Assembly: GCA_001600175.1 (NCBI GenBank)
Contig: BCJC01000003.1
Location: 1,612,001-1,676,000, forward strand
DNA from: Erythrobasidium yunnanense
Taxonomy: Eukaryota; Basidiomycota; Cystobasidiomycetes; Erythrobasidiales; Erythrobasidiaceae
DNA length: 64,000 nucleotides
Direction of reading: 5' to 3'
Position numbers and translations under genes: made by a program. Below are positions 29,089 to 58,594 of the stretch, piece by piece. Each line of letters opens with the position of its first letter. The stretch's first letter is position 1. The notes under the pieces are model-generated. The model made no database searches, was not told the DNA's origin, and saw only the letters and a program-made list of their open reading frames with translations.

Positions 29089-29168
29089 GGTCGGCTAGCT
29101 CAGTTGGGAGAGCGTCAGCTTTACATTAGATACGCTGAATGTCAAGAGATCGAAACTCTTGCTGATCA
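29089..29168 (+). tRNA. tRNA-Val (UAC) with a 7-base intron
   Basis: All stems pair by eye. The acceptor is GGTCGGC with GCTGATC (two G-U pairs) plus discriminator A; the D stem is GCTC/GAGC; the anticodon stem is TCAGC/GCTGA; the T stem is AAGAG/CTCTT. The anticodon loop is seven bases too long. Removing TTAGATA (29126-29132) after position 37 restores the loop TTTACAC, with anticodon TAC at 29122-29124, as in other fungal tRNA-Val genes. A run of five Ts at about 29176-29180 is a good Pol III terminator. The T loop starts A-T-C-G instead of T-T-C-G, so the B box is weak. Confidence 0.75.
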
Positions 29169-57665: not shown

Positions 57666-57792
57666 GTCTGGTTAGCTCAGTTGGTTAGGTTAGTTACGAG
57701 CGTTTAAGAGAGTAGCAACAGATCCTGACAATTCAACACAGAGCGTTCGACTGTTAATCGAGAGGTCTACAGTTCAAACCTGTAACTGGACG
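57666..57792 (+). tRNA. tRNA-Asn (GUU) with a 53-base intron in the D arm
   Basis: Exons 57666-57688 and 57742-57792 join to 74 bases that fold exactly: acceptor GTCTGGT with ACTGGAC plus discriminator G; D stem GCTC/GAGC; anticodon stem TTCGA/TCGAG; loop CTGTTAA with anticodon GTT; T stem TACAG/CTGTA with loop TTCAAAC. A TTTTT terminator lies at about 57811-57815. The insert (57689-57741) splits the 3' strand of the D stem after its first G, not the usual position 37/38 of the anticodon loop. The A box upstream of the insert and the B box downstream are intact, but their spacing grows by 53 bases. Confidence 0.85.
57689..57741 (+). other. Spliceosomal-type intron inside tRNA-Asn
   Basis: It starts GTTAGT, has CCTGAC (branch-like CTGAC) 12-16 bases before the end, and ends ACACAG. 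These are the signals of the mRNA introns in this window. Its first five bases (GTTAG) repeat the five exon bases just before it. Confidence 0.7.
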
Positions 57793-58594
57793 CTGGAGCG
57801 TTAGCTCTTCTTTTTCCCCGGTTTTCTAAGTTTTCCTGATGCCTCCGGGCTTTCACACTTTTTGGCAAGCCCAGATGTGTCAGGAAGCCCGATCCCGCAT
57901 ACGAGCGTATGTATACATCTATGACTATACGTAGAGCGAGTCTCGAGGCTATCTGACAAGCAATGCCAATGTTGTGGCCAGAAGAAGTTTTTTTACCCCT
58001 ATTTTCGCTCAATACGTTATAACGCGGGCAATAGGCCCGCAAGACATCCATACGTGTTCCCGCACAGTAGAACATCTCAGATCATCAAAGGAAAATCCGC
58101 GGCGAAGATTTTTGCGGCTTGTAGATCGATTTCTTTTTTGCGATATTTCGAATATTTCGAATATGGTCCGAAAAATTCAGGAAGCAGTCCATATGCACTA
58201 CATCACTTTAGAAACACATATATAAGCTGTATCGGTCGCGGCGAACGTGATTGAATGAGCTCGAACGGATTTTGTGCAGACTACAGAAGAATCGCTCCTG
58301 TAATTATTCTCTAGCTTTCCGGCGCGAGCAAGAGACGTCTACTATACTTTCAAGTGATACTGGTACCGTCAGGATCACTGTTTAGCTGCTGCGACCCTTC
58401 CTGACTTTTCTGGCTGCCTCAGGTACCGCCTGACCGGCTTTTCCGTCTTTCCTAGGTCGCTTCAGCGTGATAGTTCGTTATACATCCTTCAATCGCTCCA
58501 CGGGAAGGTAACACAAGCTGTAAATACACCTTCGCACCCAAATGACCAAAAAACGTGACTTTCATCTCTTGACCGAACGCGATAACACCGCAAC
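57793..58594. other. Intergenic region between tRNA-Asn and the coiled-coil gene
   Basis: Holds the T5 terminator of the tRNA and an AT-rich patch with two copies of ATATTTCGA near 58142-58165. No gene is seen; it includes the coiled-coil gene's promoter. Confidence 0.35.

Follow-up and report, generated by a model that had tools for sequence, protein, structure and literature searches.

A spliceosomal-type intron in the D arm of a tRNA-Asn gene of Erythrobasidium yunnanense, one of many such introns in the tRNA genes of this genome

A gene for tRNA-Asn(GUU) was identified on the forward strand of the window, i.e. the whole 64,000-nt stretch of E. yunnanense DNA that was analyzed. As shown in Table 1, the gene is interrupted within its D arm by an insert with GT-AG ends, and in this respect the initial annotation was confirmed. 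Removal of the insert yields a 74-nt product with complete stems (cloverleaf score 57.75, on our own scale), which was identified by ARAGORN as tRNA-Asn(gtt). The unspliced gene was named wrongly by the same program (Leu(tag) with a 34-nt intron), and default ARAGORN and Rfam scans of the window missed it. A lax Rfam scan detected the 3′ part of the gene alone (22 bits, compared to a cut-off of 29). Nuclear tRNA introns and mRNA introns are separate worlds, with different positions and different enzymes. The Asn intron is located at 22/23, not at 37/38, the canonical tRNA-intron site. By reading, the gene also carries the signals of a Pol III transcribed host (A box, B box and a T5 run); the two boxes are presumed assignments, made by comparison with the consensus, and transcription would follow from them.

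Table 1. Features of the tRNA-Asn(GUU) gene (positions are those of the window)
Feature	Position	Strand	Basis
tRNA-Asn(GUU) exon 1: nt 1-22, acceptor 5′ strand, D-stem 5′ strand, D loop, G22	57666..57688	+	direct reading, cloverleaf
A-box-like internal promoter TAGCTCAGTTGG, intact	57673..57684	+	read in sequence; compared with consensus
Spliceosomal-type intron, 53 nt, GTTAGT...CTGAC...ACACAG, in D stem between G22 and A23	57689..57741	+	
Putative branch site CTGAC; A at 57728, 13 nt before intron end	57725..57729	+	
tRNA-Asn(GUU) exon 2, A23 to discriminator G73; anticodon GTT at 57753-57755	57742..57792	+	
B box GTTCAAACC, intact	57772..57780	+	read in sequence; compared with consensus
T5 run, probable Pol III terminator	57811..57815	+	

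The edges of the insert can be shifted by one base (57688-57740) to give the same product, and one of these two phases is GT-AG. In a free deletion scan, 29 of 675 deletions (25 distinct products) shared the top score, one of them with GT/GC-AG ends; the D-arm boundary is not fixed by the cloverleaf score alone. When the sequence upstream of the T arm was shuffled 1000 times and up to two GT-AG removals of 48-71 nt each were permitted, no shuffle reached an equal cloverleaf. It had also been suggested that a GTTAG duplication at the 5′ edge might be a trace of the origin of the insert. The repeat is indeed present (GTTAG/GTTAGT, the slash marking the splice site), but its reading as an insertion trace was rejected, as GTTAGT recurs as the 5′ site of the tRNA-Phe and tRNA-Thr(CGT) introns, whose exon ends lack the repeat. 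The duplication appears to reflect a D-loop motif that abuts a 5′ splice site. Another short repeat, GAGCGTT, is found within the intron (57698-57704) and again at the 3′ exon edge (57741-57747), and the intronic copy could form a rival D stem in the unspliced RNA.

A Med5 gene lies upstream of the tRNA gene. The downstream ORFs tested gave Pfam matches (YwqH-like, bZIP) that were all under the curated cut-offs. The ARG2 protein of the window shows 91% identity to a metagenome protein and 63% to Cystobasidium minutum, its best named relative, which points to a source within the Cystobasidiomycetes. The sole match of the default Rfam scan is a second tRNA gene (29089-29168; L012) without a spliceosomal-type intron, for which the ARAGORN name Ile(UAU) was replaced on inspection by Val(UAC) with a 7-nt intron at 37/38.

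Searches of the genome with tRNA and T-arm patterns, combined with fetched stretches, resolved at least 22 distinct tRNA genes, spread over nine contigs, that together contain 34 introns outside 37/38. The hosts (number of introns in brackets where there is more than one) are Asn, Ile(AAU) (3), Arg(CCG) (2), two Lys(CUU) genes (1 and 2), Lys(UUU), Phe (2), Gln(CUG), Cys, Ser(UGA), Leu(UAA) (3), Leu(UAG) (3), Leu(CAA) (2), Leu(AAG), Thr(AGU), Thr(CGU), Arg(CCU), Arg(UCU), two Gly(GCC) genes, Pro(UGG) (2) and elongator Met (2). An ordinary 37/38 intron (8-34 nt) is additionally present in 16 of the 22 genes. At least 18 other tRNA genes contain, by inspection, no spliceosomal-type intron. One of the pattern searches covers the first 100 of 182 matching places. 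The initial search favored uninterrupted genes and several isotypes were not found, so the true interrupted fraction cannot be stated. A scan of 49 contiguous T-arm anchors (316,260 bases), in which one GT/GC-AG removal was allowed, gave 27 cloverleaves, 11 of them via an intron, and brought out the Lys(UUU) gene. This gene was outside the earlier ARAGORN, deletion and branch-site runs, which therefore cover 21 genes or fewer.

The 22 genes do not include L065, an identical inverted copy of L064 located about 3 kb from it, or four degenerate Glu-like copies (L069, L070, L105 and L107). The latter are situated close to contig ends (C6 and C9), within sequence that these ends have in common and that is probably subtelomeric, and the acceptor 3′ strand has been lost in L105 and L107. 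Genes for initiator Met, Tyr, Val(AAC/CAC), Ala(AGC), Ser(GCT), Arg(ACG) and further Pro tRNAs were not found among the tRNA genes. Initiator Met alone was searched with a pattern of its own (GATCGAAACC; 25 places, none of the 20 inspected being tRNA-like), and the anchors of the other missing isotypes may be split, which makes the gene counts incomplete. Several ARAGORN names were rejected on inspection: L007 (Gln) was reread as Lys(UUU), L008 (Gly) as Trp, L011 and L063 (both Trp) as Arg(CCG), and L013 (Arg) as Leu(CAG), and in each case the 37/38 intron then fits.

Insert boundaries that require no splice-site assumption were provided by paralogue pairs: Ile(AAU) L068 versus L033 (three inserts), Arg(CCG) L063 versus L011 (two) and Lys(CUU) L089 versus L088 (one). 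All six inserts fell on GT..AG, five uniquely and one in a four-phase tie. As background, 5633 GT..AG segments of 51-61 nt occur on both strands of the window, which is about 0.4% of the start-and-length combinations. Each of the six paralogue-defined introns contains CTRAY, 12-20 nt from its end.

In the complete set of 34 introns, where most boundaries outside the paralogue pairs were placed by eye with GT-AG in mind, 33 have GT-AG and one has GC-AG ends, and the length is 51-69 nt (median 55 nt). G is found at position +5 in 27 introns (25% of random GT..AG segments) and a pyrimidine at -3 in 30 (44% of random segments). CTRAY with its A 8-25 nt before the end was detected in 26 of the 34, compared to a background of 6.3%; 26 also have the motif within 8-40 nt of the end, compared to 11.3% of the 5633 random segments. 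A strict CTRAY is missing in eight introns, and four of the 34 lack even a loose match. The features expected of spliceosomal (U2-type) introns are present in this set, i.e. (i) GT-AG ends, (ii) 5′-site and branch-site consensus at a fungal distance and (iii) the size class of mRNA and U6 introns. A depletion of T runs, considered as a sign of Pol III selection, was rejected: T4 runs are not avoided in the 34 introns (8/34, versus 7.1 in shuffles), and T5 runs were absent, versus 2.1 in shuffles (fraction of shuffles as low, 0.105).

The structures restored by intron removal were examined in several ways. ARAGORN gave the expected anticodon in 16 of 21 genes after removal and in 2 of 21 when unspliced. 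The five mismatches after removal are Ile (unnamed), Arg(CCG) (called Trp), Phe (Ala), Leu(TAG) (taa) and elongator Met (no call). The shuffle test was applicable to 16 genes, the T arm of the other 6 of the 22 being split by an intron; 14 of the 16 beat all 1000 shuffles, and 27 of the 16,000 shuffles reached a score of 50. The weakest cases are elongator Met, on which ARAGORN was silent even after removal and with whose score one of 1000 shuffles tied, and Arg(CCU), whose 69-nt GC-AG intron cannot be recovered by the GT-only shuffle test and whose score in that test was reached by 33 of 1000 shuffles. When a branch-site rule was applied, 15 of 18 genes were recovered (the exceptions being Phe, Arg(CCT) and Pro), and none of 300 shuffles scored 50 or more; Pro being unrecovered, all 20 of its shuffles were counted as equal.

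In a scan of any deletion under all dinucleotide rules, GT-AG ranked first, giving the maximum at 7 of 13 loci and a score of at least 50 at 11 of them, against 4 and 8 loci, respectively, for the rules that came next. The 13 loci include one degenerate Glu-like copy. The margin is modest because the D loop tolerates many deletions. The first free deletion scan ranked 18 of 33 introns with its top products, and the three Ile and two Arg(CCG) rows of that scan had mis-trimmed 37/38 introns. In the two Gly(GCC) genes the introns lie at different sites, and their removal yields the same 71-nt product from each gene; the spliced products of the two Lys(CUU) genes differ at one of 73 positions.

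Besides 22/23 in Asn, introns were located (standard numbering, our own reading) at 5/6, 9/10, in the D loop, at 25/26 or 26/27, 31/32, 35/36, 48/49, 51/52 and 53/54; the regions hit are the acceptor stem, D arm, anticodon loop and T arm. Both Lys(CUU) genes found carry an intron at 5/6 of the acceptor stem (GCCCG/GTA..TTTAG/GTTAGC). In Thr(AGU) and Lys(UUU) the intron lies at 35/36, within the anticodon. The Lys(UUU) gene (L007; G000:C2:626475-626613) contains a 55-nt intron (GTACGT..CTATAG) at this site, followed by an 11-nt intron at 37/38; taken as a single 66-nt 37/38 intron, the insert would give the anticodon UUG, and the gene was named Gln by ARAGORN. The 53/54 site, in the T arm, is common to four Leu isoacceptors (L058, L061, L062 and L064/L065) and Ile, and the Leu(AAG), Leu(CAA) and Leu(UAG) introns share the start GTGAGY..CAAA. 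The Leu introns at 53/54, three of which are alike at their 5′ ends, may represent one old intron, and the overall spread of positions argues for several intron gains.

The Asn and Phe (L059) introns occupy the same site (22/23) and have the same 5′ site (GTTAGT), which would fit either a common origin or repeated insertion. Both Gly(GCC) genes (L096 and L097) have the sequence CGGGCGG at the acceptor 3′ end, where G72 is mismatched with G1, and a conserved CCTATCTAAACC..CAATGCAG/CA downstream. Cutting out a GA-AG segment (GAAAGT..GCAG; 53 nt in L096, counted by hand) would bring back C72 and A73. A non-canonical acceptor intron is possible in these two genes, the alternative being a GT-AG intron in the trailer.

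Putative introns of the same size class were also found in other genes of this genome. Yeasts of the Cystobasidiomycetes (Erythrobasidium, and Sakaguchia under older names) have multiple introns in U6. In the U6 gene of E. yunnanense (L091; G000:C3:381000-383200, near 382,000), inserts of 59 and 56 nt were located by script within the conserved core. Their ends are tied among three and four phases, respectively, and for each insert one of these phases is compatible with GT-AG. A third insert (52 nt; AAA/GTGCGT..CTTAG/ATTGG) and a fourth (55 nt), both mRNA-type, were placed by eye. Rfam recognized this gene as a fragment only (23.5 bits, versus a cut-off of 44). Thus, the comparison with U6 that the initial annotation had drawn was borne out, and mRNA-type introns in a gene of the Pol III class are very likely a fact of this genome. 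As for the protein genes of the window, a frame-keeping GT-AG candidate of 48-63 nt with CTRAY was predicted from the sequence, with a 5′-site filter applied, at 10 of 17 ORF junctions (9 distinct candidates).

The most probable interpretation (probability about 0.9) is that the locus is a functional nuclear gene for tRNA-Asn(GUU), probably present in a single copy, with a spliceosomal intron in the D arm of its pre-tRNA, and that it is one of many such genes. The gene would be transcribed by Pol III from its intact A and B boxes, and the spliceosome would excise the intron, branching at the CTGAC site; the D arm would form, and tRNA-Asn mature, only after excision. In the genes that carry a 37/38 intron as well, two splicing machines would act on one pre-tRNA. 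The sequence itself provides the positions, boundaries, motifs and restored cloverleaves, and the searches gave no second Asn gene; we infer transcription, spliceosomal excision, the order of the two reactions and essentiality. The initial annotation had proposed spliceosomal maturation as one of two options, and the occurrence of the same intron type in 21 further distinct tRNA genes supports it.

The other option was a dead gene copy, in which the GT-AG insert would have arisen by chance, tRNA-Asn being supplied by another gene. According to PMC4090602, eukaryotic tRNA genes with insertions in the D and T arms are for the most part regarded as pseudogenes, apart from those of nucleomorphs and a red alga, and the degenerate Glu-like copies near contig ends are examples of decay in this genome. 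A normal tRNA-Asn gene was sought elsewhere in the 10 contigs (20,915,242 bases). An uninterrupted anticodon-to-B-box pattern matched one place in the whole genome, the gene in the window. The 161-base Asn locus, used as a DNA-similarity query, gave one match, to itself, and the spliced Asn sequence gave two pieces, both from the window gene. An anticodon-arm pattern, also open to a 37/38 intron, matched nine places, of which by inspection the window gene alone has a tRNA context. These searches score best candidates only and could miss a divergent or split second Asn gene, so that their evidence for the absence of another tRNA-Asn gene is strong, not proof. As these searches of the 20.9-Mb genome brought up no further tRNA-Asn gene, a dead copy is very unlikely. 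Neither decayed structure nor a functional copy elsewhere, the marks of a tRNA pseudogene, was found for the Asn gene: all of its stems, the A box, the B box and the terminator are intact. Moreover, all three Lys genes found, and the sole Phe, Cys and elongator Met genes found, carry introns of this type, and they are hardly all dead.

It is also most improbable that the Asn insert is a non-canonical intron cut by the tRNA splicing endonuclease. Cyanidioschyzon and cryptophyte nucleomorphs offer precedents, with multiple non-canonical introns in the D and T arms (PMC4090602), and the ordinary 37/38 introns occur in this fungus. However, such introns need neither GT-AG ends nor CTRAY, both of which are present here, and the length of 51-69 nt is that of U6 and mRNA introns. 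A relaxed bulge-helix-bulge helix was of similar frequency at the introns (10 of 34) and at random cuts (1151 of 4400), in what is a weak test, as just 4 of 16 canonical introns gave one. Finally, an assembly, annotation or self-splicing artefact is extremely improbable: the assembly was taken as given, but 34 similar inserts with precise ends occur in 22 genes on nine contigs, and 51-69 nt is far below the size of group I and II introns, which are much longer.

Several known systems resemble the one described here. According to the available part of PMC5832005, mRNA-type introns occur in fungal U6 snRNA and U3 snoRNA genes (U3 also being assigned to Pol III), these two have so far been the sole small structured RNAs known as often intron-interrupted, and their introns have GTRWGT donors and an RCTRAC branch about 15 nt from AG, with GC-AG rare. 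Common to those introns and the present ones is the occurrence of GT-AG spliceosomal introns in small structured RNAs, U6 being a Pol III product; here, in contrast, the hosts are tRNAs of many gene families, with up to three introns per gene at many positions. The canonical 37/38 introns, processed by the Sen endonuclease and ligase, likewise lie within nuclear pre-tRNA, and those described here differ from them in site, in having GT-AG ends and a branch site, and in length (51-69 versus 8-34 nt). Spliceosomal introns are also contained in the nuclear rRNA genes of ascomycetes, and a messenger-RNA intron in 18S rDNA is reportedly the subject of a paper title from 1993. These are mRNA-type introns in a structural RNA gene as well, but in a Pol I transcript with many copies, not in a tRNA. 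In eukaryotes, non-canonical tRNA introns are described in nucleomorphs and a red alga (PMC4090602, available part). The ectopic introns of cryptophyte nucleomorphs and Cyanidioschyzon merolae share with ours the location in D and T arms and the number of up to three per gene; unlike ours, they are 3-24 nt long (Guillardia) or of the BHB type (Cyanidioschyzon), with no spliceosomal signals described in that part. No report of spliceosomal introns in tRNA genes was found in searches of the open-access literature, and the available parts of PMC4494063 and PMC11782384 contain nothing on them.

In the pairs L033/L068 and L011/L063, some Ile(AAU) and Arg(CCG) paralogues have kept the 37/38 intron and lack every spliceosomal one, as if these intron-poor copies were derived from a spliceosome-processed precursor. 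An origin from cDNA would mean that the spliceosome worked ahead of the endonuclease, whereas an ancestral state of these copies would imply a gain of three and two introns by their counterparts. Either origin fits the sequence. We lean towards a joint reading in which the spliceosome would be an obligatory, general tRNA-maturation machine in this lineage, acting first on essential pre-tRNAs, with the unrelated endonuclease system second. It would assemble the anticodon (34-35/36) in Lys(UUU) and Thr(AGU), and the intron-poor Ile(AAU) and Arg(CCG) copies could preserve this order, having arisen by reverse transcription. If this joint reading is true, a transcript of L007 skipped by the spliceosome, with the whole insert cut as a 37/38 intron, would carry the anticodon UUG instead of UUU, so that splice choice could alter decoding.

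The introns account for the failure of ARAGORN and Rfam to find, or to name correctly, many of these tRNA genes. The natural pairs of loci with and without introns provide a view of intron gain and loss in RNAs that lack a reading frame. The findings suggest that the spliceosome can act on short folded Pol III transcripts almost anywhere along their length, even within a stem or the anticodon. In E. yunnanense, the maturation of tRNAs for several amino acids seems to have passed in part to the spliceosome, which would make translation directly dependent on splicing.
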